From a virus, in IMG/VR virus record IMGVR_UViG_3300008267_000016, positions 21,269 to 85,268 of that record: DNA of 64,000 bases. One strand, written 5' to 3'. Below the pieces are notes generated by a model. The model was not told the DNA's origin. It saw nothing but the letters and a program-made list of their open reading frames with translations, and made no database searches. Position 1 is the stretch's first letter. Each line of letters opens with the position of its first letter. Positions 14,767 through 53,440 of the stretch are shown piece after piece. The position numbers and the translations under genes were made by a program.

Positions 14767-15346
14767 AACTTTTATTCGTCGCTACAACATACCTGATGTT
14801 ACTCTGTGCGATGAAATCATAAAATGGTTTGAAGACCACCCTGAGAAACAAGGGACTGGTGTTGTCCAGTCACGAGAAGGTAAACCTATAGTAAATAAAG
14901 ATTATAAAGATGGTACGTGTATTTCTGTGAATGATATTAATTATGCTTACACTCAGCCACCTCTGCGTTCGTTTCTTATTTGGCTTTGGGACTGTGTGAA
15001 TCTGTATTTAGAAGATTTCCCCGAGCTTAAAAATTCTTGTTTTGCTATGAGAGAGGGGTTTAATATTCAAAGATTTCTACCCCCAAGTCAAGGGTTTAAA
15101 GTTTTTCACCATGAAAGGATATCGTATCAAGTCTGTCCTCGTTTACTTGTCTTTATGCTTTATTTAAACGATGTAGAAGATAAAGGCGGTACAGAATTCA
15201 AGTACTACAACCATGTTGAAAAAGCTCAACGCGGCAAATTGTTGATTTGGCCAACAGACTTCACCCACACCCACCGTGGTGTAGTATCGCCAACAGAAAA
15301 AAAGTACATTATTACTGGCTGGTATGGTCTAATCCCTGCAGAGTAA
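14756..15346 (+). CDS. 2-oxoglutarate/Fe(II)-dependent oxygenase (second)
   Basis: A 196-residue protein with FKVFHHERISYQVCPRLLVF, VMLYLND-type strand, EDKGGTEFKYY and LLIWPTDFTHTHRGVVSP followed by KKYIITGWY. This is the layout of the prolyl-hydroxylase family seen in phages and marine bacteria; the first metal pair is H-x-E rather than the common H-x-D. GTG at 14756 overlaps the preceding gene by 11 bases. Its end overlaps the convergent carbamoyltransferase by 18 bases. Confidence 0.8.
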   Translation: MSTETFIRRYNIPDVTLCDEIIKWFEDHPEKQGTGVVQSREGKPIVNKDYKDGTCISVNDINYAYTQPPLRSFLIWLWDCVNLYLEDFPELKNSCFAMREGFNIQRFLPPSQGFKVFHHERISYQVCPRLLVFMLYLNDVEDKGGTEFKYYNHVEKAQRGKLLIWPTDFTHTHRGVVSPTEKKYIITGWYGLIPAE

Positions 15347-16936
15347 TCTCATATTTTCTGGAGTATACAGATAATCTATCTTTGTGTTATTTAAAGTACT
15401 TACAGCGTCTTCAAACGTTTCTATTATTGGTTGCTTATCGACATTAAATGAAGTATTACCTAGTATAGGTACTCCTGTAATTTCGTAAAAATTTTGTATT
15501 AGCTCAAAGTAATTTTTATTTTGTTCTTTTGTTATTGTTTGTATCCTGCACGTACCGTCGACATGTACTATGGCAGGTATCTTTTCTTTTTTTAAACACG
15601 TAGCATTTAGAGTCATAAAAGGGTTTTCTTCGATATCAAACCATTTTTCTACTTCTTCCTGAAGTATAGTACCTGCAAAAGGCCTAAAACTTTCTCTGTT
15701 TTTTATTCGGTTGATTATATCTTTACCGTTTGGCAGACAAGGGTTAAAAAGAATAGAACGGTTTCCTAATGCTCTAGCACCTGCTTCTGACCTCCCCTGG
15801 AACAGAGCGACTGTTTTTCCCTTGGATAACAAAAGAGCTACTTCTTTACTTGTTGTCCTGTCTCCGATTTCTTTAAAAAGTAACTCCTTTTTTGGCCCTA
15901 GGTAGATATTCTCTAACTTTCTCTTTGTCTGGTCTTTTTGCTCAGCGTGGTGCACCAACTTAGCTGCGCCATACGATAGACCTCCGTCACCAGCCATAGG
16001 GTCAATAAAAAAATTAAACTCGCTTAGTTTATCTTTGTAGTATTTATTGGCTACTATATTTAATGCAAAGCCTCCAGATAACACTATATTTTTTGTGTTA
16101 CTCAGTTTTATTGCTTTTTTTATGTAACTTAAAGCTTTTTCTTGTGTTGCTTTTTGTACGGCAAATGCTAGATCTGCTTGTAGCTGTCCCCAATCGTTTG
16201 TAATAAGCTCAGGGTAACTGTAGGTGTTTATCTTATTGTCATTAGTAAAAAGATTTTTATTCGCTTCTTTTTTGGGGCCTGTCAGTATCTCTGGGATGTT
16301 TTTATTTGCTGCTCCGTATGCTGCTAACCCCATGGTTTTACCACAGTCTAGATTTCTAAATCCTTGATGATTAGCTACTGCTTGATACATACCGCCTATA
16401 TCGATATGGGAAGTTATTTCGACTTCTGTGTTATGAAGTAAGGAACTAACAGCGCTAAAATTACTTCCTCTGTGCGGATCGACAACTAGTTTTTTGTACA
16501 GCAGCCTGAAATTATCTGGATACGAGGCTTCGTATACGGATGTTGTTTCAGCACCAAAAGCTCCGTTATTTAGCGCGAATTCTGAACCTCTCCCATCAAA
16601 AACTACGCAGACTGCTTCAGTGAAACCAGAACTGTAGAAAGCCGAAGCAGCGTGGGCTAAATGATGTATATCGTTGTGAACACTAAATCGTTTAAAAGTT
16701 ATTCCATTTTTTCTAAGTAAATGTTTTATGAAGTTTTCATTTCCGCAGTGAGTTACTATAACTGAATCTATTTCTGTGACTATATCTTTTATTTGACCTA
16801 TACATTTTATAGGTTCTGAGTCATATTTTATTTTTGATAATCTTTCTTCCTCTATGAATAGTTCAACTTCCCCATTAATTAGTAAGCAAACACTTGAATT
16901 ATGCTTACCACAATGTATTCCTAATACTGAGTTCAT
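15329..16936 (-). CDS. NodU/CmcH-family O-carbamoyltransferase
   Basis: A 535-residue, full-length member. The N-terminal ASKHA-type domain shows GIHCGKHNSSVCLLINGEVE, EEERLSKIKYD, HHLAHAASAFYSSGF and VVFDGRG. A later SGGFALNIVANKYY and DPMAGDGGLSYGAA are present, and the C-terminal domain has ALFQGRSEAGARALGNRSIL, ESFRPFAGTI and GNTSFN. The family transfers a carbamoyl group from carbamoyl phosphate to a hydroxyl, normally on a sugar. Coupled by an ATGA overlap to an oxygenase and facing two more, it may complete a hydroxylate-then-carbamoylate modification. AT-richer than surrounding genes. Confidence 0.9.
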   Translation of the reverse strand: MNSVLGIHCGKHNSSVCLLINGEVELFIEEERLSKIKYDSEPIKCIGQIKDIVTEIDSVIVTHCGNENFIKHLLRKNGITFKRFSVHNDIHHLAHAASAFYSSGFTEAVCVVFDGRGSEFALNNGAFGAETTSVYEASYPDNFRLLYKKLVVDPHRGSNFSAVSSLLHNTEVEITSHIDIGGMYQAVANHQGFRNLDCGKTMGLAAYGAANKNIPEILTGPKKEANKNLFTNDNKINTYSYPELITNDWGQLQADLAFAVQKATQEKALSYIKKAIKLSNTKNIVLSGGFALNIVANKYYKDKLSEFNFFIDPMAGDGGLSYGAAKLVHHAEQKDQTKRKLENIYLGPKKELLFKEIGDRTTSKEVALLLSKGKTVALFQGRSEAGARALGNRSILFNPCLPNGKDIINRIKNRESFRPFAGTILQEEVEKWFDIEENPFMTLNATCLKKEKIPAIVHVDGTCRIQTITKEQNKNYFELIQNFYEITGVPILGNTSFNVDKQPIIETFEDAVSTLNNTKIDYLYTPENMRLLCRD

Positions 16937-50571: not shown

Positions 50572-50877
50572 TCAGGAAGAATAACGGCCGACGATGACAT
50601 CGTTGCCGCACAACTTAACTAGCGTTCCTGTGAAATAGGAATCGTTAGCGATACCGTGCCAACCCTTAAACGGACCGTCAGGGTTAGTGTTAGTCAGGAA
50701 CTCGCAGAGGTTGTAATACCAACCGCGATAGCGAAAGAATGAACAATCGCGGTCGAACTCTTCATCGCTCATCCAATCAAATTGGTGGCGCAGTTTGGCA
50801 CGCTGAGACTGCGAAAGTTCGCAGGGGTTGAACAACGGGCGTGGTTGATTGTTGGTCTTAATTGTCAGTTCAGTCAT
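50572..50877 (-). CDS. Hypothetical protein, first of the leftward block
   Basis: From ATG at 50877, 101 residues: MTELTIKTNNQPRPLFNPCE, LSQSQRAKLRHQFDWMSDEE, RYRGWYYNLCEFL. The short SQSQRAKLRHQFDWMSDEEF segment looks like a folded helical unit. It is the first gene of the early leftward block. Confidence 0.65.
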   Translation of the reverse strand: MTELTIKTNNQPRPLFNPCELSQSQRAKLRHQFDWMSDEEFDRDCSFFRYRGWYYNLCEFLTNTNPDGPFKGWHGIANDSYFTGTLVKLCGNDVIVGRYSS

Positions 50878-51187
50878 GTAAATACACCTGTGAAACTGTT
50901 GTAAACGGTGAGGGTAGAGGCCCTCAGTGTGCATCGTAACACACAGTGAGAGCGTCACACACACAAACGCAGAAACGAAACTTTGCACCATGATCAAATG
51001 TGATCACGAATACAAAGAAATCCACCCCTAAGTAGAGCCCGGTAGGTAATACCAGGCCCCACTAAAGAGTGATTCCGGGAAACTGACCCCAAATTAAAGT
51101 CAGTTATGGCGCACATTATGCGCACAAAAGCTATTAAATTGTGCCAAACCTGCAAAATTAAAAGCTTGCGGGCATGGCTGCAGAGAC
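50878..51187. other. Protein-poor segment between the leftward block and the structured RNA
   Basis: No convincing gene. It has a near-perfect inverted repeat around 50920-50952 (CTCAGTGTG and CACACAGTGAG), and a palindrome GCGCACATTATGCGC at 51110-51124. Promoters for the leftward block are expected here, but I could not place matched -35/-10 boxes. Confidence 0.6.
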
Positions 51188-51204
51188 GATGACCGTAGAA
51201 AGAA
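51188..51204. repeat. GATGACCGTAGAAAGAA repeat, copy 2
   Basis: The 17-base sequence is identical to 52098-52114, and the first 13 bases match 47711-47723. It marks the left end of the structured segment. Confidence 0.9.
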
Positions 51205-52097
51205 CTCCTATGGGCTCTGTCCAGCGTACCTGTGTGAGGGACAGATACTCTGGACACAGCATCCCTGCGGTTGAGAAAGTTAAATTGTGCCCGAGCTGGG
51301 TAGGACGGGCTATTGCGTCAGGCCACACCAGATCTATAAAGGTCGCAACGATACATGTAGCCGGGAATCTGATTCTCACTGGGCTACTGCGTTAGTCACA
51401 AGCTCGCAAGTCTGGGGACTTAACTAACGACAACCTGCCAAAGTTAAATACTTTGAGCATGGGACCAAGGGCCTCTCGGGCAAGCCACTAGCTTCAAGCC
51501 TCCCTTAACGTGACTCGCAGGCCATCGTCGGGTGAGCGGAAGATTCTAGTGGGGGCAAGGGGCTTAGGCTCGCGAGAGCTTGTGGGCACACCCCGCCTCT
51601 GACTACTAGCATCTGAGGGTATCGGTCCCCGCCCGCCTAACTGCCAGCCACTACTACCAGGTGCGATCCCTTATGGGTCTGCTCTCACCCTGGTGGGCGT
51701 CAGTCTTGACGGTCGGTTGTCCTATGTCGTCGACCCTTTCGGGCCGTTGCTGGAATCCTACAGCATGGTGCGGAGCTTGTCGGAACGATCGAGTGACGGT
51801 TTGGCGATCGGCACAAGGGGGAACGCATAGGTTCACAGGCCTTGGCTGATCAACCGCCGGATCGCGCCGGGGCTGGCGTGGTGCTGATCGGATTGTCCAG
51901 ATTCTGCCGATCGGGCTCTCGCCCTTCGACCCCTTAATGAGATCACACCACGGCGCACTAGGTCAACCCCTTGCAACCGGATTGCGGATTGGCACACTGT
52001 GTGCGCTCAGTGCGCAGGAGATGGAACCGCGCCCGCACATGCGCGCGAGGGTAGCACACGACGGGCAGATCTTAATAAGAATAAACGACAACCCCCT

Positions 52098-52114
52098 GAT
52101 GACCGTAGAAAGAA
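52098..52114. repeat. GATGACCGTAGAAAGAA repeat, copy 3
   Basis: Identical to copy 2, 910 bases away in direct orientation, and marks the right end of the structured segment. Confidence 0.9.
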
Positions 52115-52281
52115 TTAAACAGTGCTGTGTATAAACAATAAACAATAGGTGAGTTACAACAACGGCAGTGTTATACTGTACCATCATGGCATCATGCTGC
52201 CCGCAATTTCCGCTCTTTTTTTTAAATAGAGAGCTTACGCGACGACGCGGGCGAGATACCTCTGGTCTTCGGCGGGGTAAA

Positions 52282-52312: not shown

Positions 52313-52321
52313 GGCACGGCT

Positions 52322-52394
52322 GGGGGTCTAGCTATCTGGTGAAAGCGGTCGACTCATAATCGATTTCAGGCGAGTTCGATCCTCGCGATCCCCA
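52322..52394 (+). tRNA. tRNA with CAU anticodon (Ile2 or Met)
   Basis: The 73-base cloverleaf is complete: acceptor GGGGGTC with GATCCCC, a D-arm with GGT, an anticodon stem GTCGA/TCGAT with loop CTCATAA, and a T-arm GCGAG-TTCGATC-CTCGC. The CCA end is not encoded. The anticodon CAU could be read as Met or, after lysidine modification, as tRNA-Ile2 for AUA. The loop and G/C pattern resemble Ile2, but the choice cannot be made by eye. Confidence 0.92.
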
Positions 52395-52476
52395 TCAAAA
52401 AAATTTTCGGCGCCACGTGGTCGTGGTTTAAACCTTTTAAAGGCACCTAAGCTGGTAGAAAGGTTCGTGCAATCGA

Positions 52477-52794
52477 ATGCTTTCCACGGAAGTGCGTCAG
52501 AAAGTTGAATTTATTTGCCAACGGATAGCAAAGGGAGAAGAAGTTCAGTTCAAAGATATGGAATGGATACAGAAATGGGCTAAATCAAACCATTCTGTAG
52601 ATGCTATGCTCCGTAAAGCACGTCGTGAAGGCATTCACGGTGCTTTTCAGGACGGAACTTTGGATGATTTCATGCAAAAAATGGATTTAGGGGATCCTGA
52701 CCCGGCTTCTCACCTCAACGGAGCCCAAGATCCCGTCACTTTGGCTGAGTGGTTCTCTGAAAAACGAAAATGGTTTAGAGGTACGGCTGAGTAG
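52477..52794 (+). CDS. Conserved cyanophage-type hypothetical protein
   Basis: A 105-residue protein: LSTEVRQKVEFICQRIAKGE, EWIQKWAKSNHSVDAMLRKA, LGDPDPASHLNGAQDPVTLA, EWFSEKRKWFRG. I recognise this order from unknown proteins in cyanophages. It ends in a 20-base overlap with the convergent gene. Confidence 0.8.
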   Translation: MLSTEVRQKVEFICQRIAKGEEVQFKDMEWIQKWAKSNHSVDAMLRKARREGIHGAFQDGTLDDFMQKMDLGDPDPASHLNGAQDPVTLAEWFSEKRKWFRGTAE

Positions 52795-53287: not shown

Positions 53288-53321
53288 TTGGTGTTCCCGC
53301 TCTGCTCTTCGCATCGGGCTG

Positions 53322-53393
53322 CGTGAGTAGTTCAAGGGGTAGAACGCTGAGCAAATAGCTCAGAAATGGGCGGTTCAAATCCGCCCCTCGCGA
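53322..53393 (+). tRNA. Degenerate tRNA-like element
   Basis: It has a D-arm (GTTC-AAGGGGTA-GAAC), a perfect 5-bp anticodon stem (CTGAG/CTCAG) and a strong T-arm (GGCGG-TTCAAAT-CCGCC). The acceptor stem pairs 6 of 7 only if one base is shifted, and the anticodon loop CAAATAG lacks the universal U33. It is probably a decayed tRNA or a tRNA-like RNA. Confidence 0.35.
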
Positions 53394-53440
53394 CTAGAAT
53401 GTCAGAGTTCCTGCCTAGGGACAACGGACAAGGGGACTCC

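Follow-up and report, generated by a model that had tools for sequence, protein, structure and literature searches.

The noncoding stretch between two gene blocks of an uncultured virus is, judged by sequence comparison, a member of a new, widespread and previously unlisted family of cyanophage elements. Within the window, by which we mean the whole 64,000-nucleotide stretch analyzed (bases 21269–85268 of an 85,268-base uncultured virus contig), the whole conserved, hairpin-dense noncoding element runs from ~50902 to ~52259, and homologs occupy the corresponding place in other contigs. We demonstrated its conservation, its noncoding nature, compensatory changes, modular exchange and absence from Rfam. 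The stretch stands above chance because it is conserved in tens of relatives and carries compensatory changes.

A family of elements in cyanophages

Relatives were gathered in three ways, namely by a protein search from a neighboring gene for a 105-aa protein, by scanning for the core hairpin described below and by scanning for the T8...GGCGAGA end. At least 50 uncultured cyanophage viral contigs proved to carry an element of this kind, members being about 1.0–1.5 kb in length; all are metagenomic sequences, and the alignments were made by sequence. Most aligned members start with a GAGGG..CCCTC hairpin near the leftward gene and end with T8 followed by GGCGAGA. A covariance model (R1), built from 16 relatives with the window left out, gave its best window match at 50906–51009 on the minus strand (22.1 bits, E 0.027) and placed its match likewise in L006, L008 and L188, three of the relatives. 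The same model found no match in the loci from the cyanophages S-CBP4 and S-CBS2 or in bacterial control loci. In S-CBS2, the nearest isolate by flanking protein, the element is absent at that place. A DNA similarity search of phages and plasmids returned nothing convincing except the tRNA among the matches listed, and no description of the element was found in the literature searched.

Gene setting and boundaries

The start of the contig carries terminase, portal-like and major head genes. The element sits between a leftward gene block, which includes genes for primase and DNA polymerase, and a rightward block headed by a tRNA, a placement that the initial annotation had described correctly. 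The first gene of the leftward block (50572–50877, minus strand) has its start codon ~25 nt from the element. On the other side lie the tRNA with a CAU anticodon (52321–52396, plus strand), which is a neighbor and no general part of the family, and the first gene of the rightward block (52477–52794, plus strand), coding for the 105-aa protein of phrog_507, whose function is unknown and whose other occurrences are in cyanophages. In the window, L006, L008, L042 and L188, 60–120 nt separate a tRNA from the element, and most other members have none nearby, so that the tRNA adjacency noted earlier holds for these five loci but not for most of the family. Positions 52395–52425 contain AAAAAAATTT followed by a GC-rich inverted repeat; the arrangement is similar in relatives and, judged by eye, resembles a minus-strand terminator.

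The element boundaries were set by the conserved 5′ hairpin and the T8/GGCGAGA block. The left edge (~50902) is formed by a hairpin that precedes the leftward gene's start codon by 25 nt, and the minus strand of the element enters this start codon without a terminator-like site in between. The sharpest conserved boundary, present in most members, extends from the T8 tract (52216–52223) to GGCGAGA (52250–52256), and a block related to this end was found in 40 viral stretches. No promoter-like site was found on either strand between 50800 and 52500, and the GC skew shows no sign change at the element.

Several features reported at the outset were borne out. There is no credible gene in the stretch, the longest open frame of the window's element being 87 aa against a shuffle median of 106 aa; its GC content is 0.57–0.61, compared with ~0.46 in the surroundings; and inverted repeats are numerous. 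The ~930-base extent given at first is a real stretch but only the middle of the larger unit. It had been delimited by a 17-base repeat, GATGACCGTAGAAAGAA, which is indeed exact at both ends (51188–51204 and 52098–52114). The second copy, however, is lineage-specific: it is shared only by the window and L006, the window's closest relative (94% identical), and is missing in L008 and L042. A third contig with the 17-mer (L002) has no more than 21 bases in common with the window. The perfect repeat was rejected as a defining end signal because it is lineage-specific.

Conserved structure and compensatory changes

Analysis of covariation in relatives, which had been proposed beforehand as a check, revealed compensatory changes in both halves of the element. 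In the 5′ domain alignment (17 sequences), 55 pairs were recognized with 94.9% of cells paired, and 20 of these pairs had changed on both sides; the covariation score reached 0.306, compared with 0.117 for shuffles and at most 0.073 for slid partners. In the 3′ domain, 14 of 34 pairs showed double changes. The consensus energy of the full alignment of 14 members was −296, against −156 for column shuffles. Helices and motifs were invariant in all 17 sequences of alignment A2 at a mean identity of 63%, and long-range helices were retained among relatives. Covariation and folding energy beyond shuffles thus indicate that the structure has been selected, or at least maintained.

Several parts could be delimited in the window. 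The structured domain matched by R1 (50906–51009, minus strand) lies beside the start codon of the leftward gene and has a folding z of −7.3 on the minus strand vs. −3.8 on the plus strand; a conserved TGATCA-AATG-TGATCA hairpin (50991–51006) is present in all aligned members. The first copy of the 17-base repeat holds the 5′ arm, CCGTAG (51193–51198), of a conserved hairpin; its partner arm is CTATGG at 51208–51213 and CTACGG in L006. The core hairpin (51219–51255) has the imperfect arms GTCCAG.GTACCTG and CAG.TAC.CTGGAC around a variable 8-base spacer. The hairpin with a GNRA loop noted at the outset is present at 51568–51579 (GCTC-GCGA-GAGC), and its stem has changed in step in L008 (GCCC/GGGC); the loop, though, reads TCGC in L188, so the GNRA loop is not conserved. 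In the 3′ domain, ATTGTCCAGATTC at 51892–51904 represents a recurrent TTGTC.AGGTTC motif conserved in the alignment. Long alternating purine-pyrimidine tracts (CACGCACACGCG...) occur in the element of several members (L008:2960–3110, L042, L012, L107 and L188) and are absent from the window.

Strand of the folding signal

RNase P RNA of 12 bacterial genomes served to calibrate three strand tests. Compared with dinucleotide shuffles, the stretch had a z of −3.93 on the minus strand, and on the plus strand (z −0.72) it folded no better than its shuffles. With column shuffles of the window's subgroup, the minus-strand signal was larger or equal in 13 of 13 windows (mean −4.5 vs. −2.1 for plus); for RNase P, the true strand was preferred in every window, by a smaller margin than in this subgroup. 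The broader set of 14 members displayed a weak preference (minus −5.15 vs. plus −4.71). Single-sequence z values against dinucleotide shuffles, taken over 85 windows in 12 members, averaged −2.33 for minus and −1.69 for plus, with a Wilcoxon p of 0.0006 that is optimistic since the windows overlap and the members are related. The folding signal hence speaks for the minus strand, with a clear margin for the window's subgroup and a weak one for the other members, and not for the strand leading into the tRNA as had been supposed. By both z tests the RNA would be of the minus strand, at any rate close to the leftward gene.

The third test counted wobble cells on helices picked without using G.U on either strand. 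The G.U/A.C counts for the element were 26/27, 28/27 and 85/84, and 15/22 in the window's subgroup; for RNase P they were 42/16, 18/4 and 10/1 (contrast with the element, Fisher p 0.008 and 0.003). Unlike RNase P, the element shows no excess of G.U over A.C on strand-neutral helices, and the wobble test indicates no strand. A plus-strand wobble excess among plus-predicted pairs (50 G.U vs. 13 A.C) was withdrawn, as such a count favors whichever strand is folded.

Mosaic architecture and the core hairpin elsewhere

Pairwise comparison shows the element to be a recombination mosaic whose building blocks have been shuffled between viruses. Between L139 and L191, identity is 41–45% in a 170-nt stretch and ~95% to either side of it, and the same pattern is seen between L014 and L123. 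Identity between the window and L042 is 95–100% for most of the first half and 39–60% beyond. In addition, for 18 of 54 contigs the end falls within the element, which lies within 2.5 kb of a contig end in 30 cases against eight expected, a count based on approximate contig coordinates. The ends are scattered, in keeping with failed assembly at a site that is hypervariable and recombines, and not with a fixed genome end.

The core hairpin, with the general pattern GTCCAG.GTACCTG-N8-.CAG.T...CTGGAC, was present in at least 119 IMG/VR viral stretches and was nearly always intergenic. A host repeat of the REP-like kind was rejected as its origin, given that it occurs at background level in cellular genomes (19 scattered matches in 257 Gb). 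In T7-like cyanophages it adjoins thyX in either orientation, and elsewhere it lies ~30 nt past the stop codons of tail-fiber-like genes; these thyX and tail-fiber-like settings were observed in L089, L094, L148, L172, L185, L101 and L196. In two contigs the large element is accompanied by a tail-fiber copy of the core hairpin, and the spacers differ. Its use in so many settings suggests a putative shared partner, protein or RNA.

The circular record of S-CBP4 (KC310804.1; L221:1–25 and the end of L222) was opened inside the core hairpin (..GTCCAGAGCATCT / GCATCAGGCACAGGTACGCTGGACA.., the slash marking the opening), for which a physical end, a sequencing stop or chance may be the cause; across this join the hairpin is located in the region 43966–257 of the record. 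In the T7-like-sized contig 3300035664_000025 (46,028 bases; L128 and L183), the core hairpin lies near both ends, which suggests overlapping ends or terminal repeats. In L148, L196 and L159, short inverted motifs (AGTCCCCTTCACT / AGTGAAGGGGACT) border the tail-fiber-like genes beside the core hairpin, as if these genes were exchangeable cassettes.

Possible modes of action

Our leading explanation, held with somewhat less than even confidence, is that the element is transcribed leftward into a giant RNA of modular, structured build, either a leader or a noncoding RNA. We infer its action as RNA, together with transcription, strand, start site and role, from covariation, the minus-strand folding preference, the direct run into the start codon and the lack of coding potential. 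Transcription would start at the right side near the T8/GGCGAGA block, where no consensus promoter was found, and RNA would be polymerized leftward from the minus strand across ~1.3 kb of hairpins. The transcript would fold while being made and pass straight on into the gene that opens the leftward replication operon, 25 nt away. Acting in cis, it may be a structured leader of great length by which read-through or translation of this operon is controlled; alternatively, it may be processed and released as a free large RNA. The put RNA of phage HK022, an antitermination RNA of a phage early leader, is likewise structured and placed at the head of an early operon, and it is far smaller than the element. 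This leftward-RNA reading is weakened by the lack of a G.U excess, by the weak preference in the 14-member alignment and by the lack of a promoter-like site.

Because strand-neutral helices show no G.U excess, action as DNA was kept as the main rival reading, one that we regard as rather unlikely. In that case hairpins in cruciform or single-stranded form would be arrayed where the leftward and rightward blocks diverge, and the element would be read by proteins as DNA at a replication origin, recombination hub or packaging region. The absent wobble asymmetry is consistent with this, as are the two orientations that the core hairpin takes toward thyX among T7-like cyanophages, the alternating purine-pyrimidine tracts in or near the element of several members, and a loop that is GCGA in some members and TCGC in another. 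The clear minus-strand folding preference in the window's subgroup argues against it; moreover, neither a replication protein nor an origin repeat was identified, and the GC skew keeps its sign at the element. The broader proposition that kilobase-sized, cassette-like hairpin arrays act as single-stranded or cruciform DNA and not as RNA appears to us slightly less probable still. If it were true, compensatory changes on either strand alike would maintain the arrays, cyanophage recombination would shuffle them, and the element would constitute a replication, recombination or packaging hub unlike described phage origins and packaging sites.

The proposal made initially, a plus-strand giant RNA of the GOLLD or ROOL type linked to the tRNA, now seems improbable. 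Size, phage location, modular halves and the tRNA lying 3′ of the element in the window agree with it, and the plus fold of A2 yielded the G.U surplus that we withdrew for favoring the folded strand; against this, GOLLD and ROOL are unmatched at E up to 10, folding prefers the minus strand, tRNA adjacency is confined to one subgroup, and the T8 tract lacks a preceding hairpin in most members. We give equally little credence to a non-functional recombination hotspot at which template switching perfects palindromes, so that compensatory changes would reflect mutation and not selection. The strong mosaicism, as between L139 and L191, and the accumulation of contig ends in and near the element would be expected from such a hotspot, but helices and motifs invariant in 17 of 17 A2 sequences at so low a mean identity would not, nor would the retention of both long-range helices and a fixed genomic place. 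Least probable in our view is a role of the core hairpin as a site for site-specific recombination or as a genome end, with the remainder accessory. Its two 14–15-base arms around an 8-base spacer, its usual single copy per locus and its position in S-CBP4, with the terminase/thyX end on one side and the early genes on the other in a record opened within it, resemble such a site; yet spacers differ between two sites of the same contig, contig ends are scattered over the element instead of falling at one base, and the other covarying helices would be left unexplained.

Comparison with known structured RNAs

The element is neither GOLLD nor ROOL. A scan of the region with all 4,227 Rfam families at E up to 10 gave only the tRNA and low-complexity or background matches, and searches of the whole 85-kb contig with RF02032 (GOLLD; a model of the conserved region, 416 positions) and RF03087 (ROOL; 574 positions) gave no match at E up to 10, contrary to the membership suggested in the initial annotation. 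The whole-contig ROOL search was silent in 14 control genomes as well and alone cannot show absence, but it agrees with the library-wide scans. Rfam scans of relatives likewise returned just tRNA and low-complexity or background matches: in 12 short loci, most of which are relatives, GOLLD and ROOL were unmatched at E up to 10, and no GOLLD match exceeded the gathering score in larger sets. The broader claim of a large structured noncoding phage RNA fared better: compensatory changes and the lack of a conserved reading frame uphold its structured and noncoding parts, and action as RNA is probable only to the degree given above.

Like GOLLD, the element exceeds 800 nt, is elaborately structured and phage-borne, and has one variable and one better conserved half. 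The GOLLD example solved by cryo-EM was first found in a metagenome beside a tRNA-Met, and GOLLD expression rises during phage lysis, the RNA forming a 14-mer nanocage (PMC12286853). In contrast, the present element has different motifs, a strand preference opposite to the tRNA and mostly no adjoining tRNA. ROOL is a large phage or prophage RNA without a known partner, often located near tRNAs, highly abundant and assembled into a multimeric RNA nanocage (PMC12286853); the element differs in being longer, mosaic and without general tRNA linkage. Structured RNAs reported from cyanophages include the manA, wcaG and PhotoRC-II motifs; potential 5′ UTRs of metabolic genes are a common location of manA RNAs (PMC2864571). 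None of the three was matched in the Rfam scan, and the element heads a replication block instead.

Giant structured RNAs are few, and the element would add a GOLLD-sized family rich in natural variants, carried by viruses of major photosynthetic bacteria. Owing to the mosaic build, its modules could be compared like natural chimeras. Since the core hairpin is present in the cultured phage S-CBP4 (Synechococcus CB0101), its acting form, RNA or DNA, is directly testable.

Two further observations concern other parts of the window. ARAGORN predicted a tRNA-Ile with the unusual anticodon AAU at 53320–53394, which fell below the cut-off in the window-wide Rfam scan and scored 36 bits in a small scan. 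At 15329–16936, a phage-borne carbamoyltransferase gene (Carbam_trans_N and _C) adjoins genes that appear, by eye only, to be oxygenase-like.
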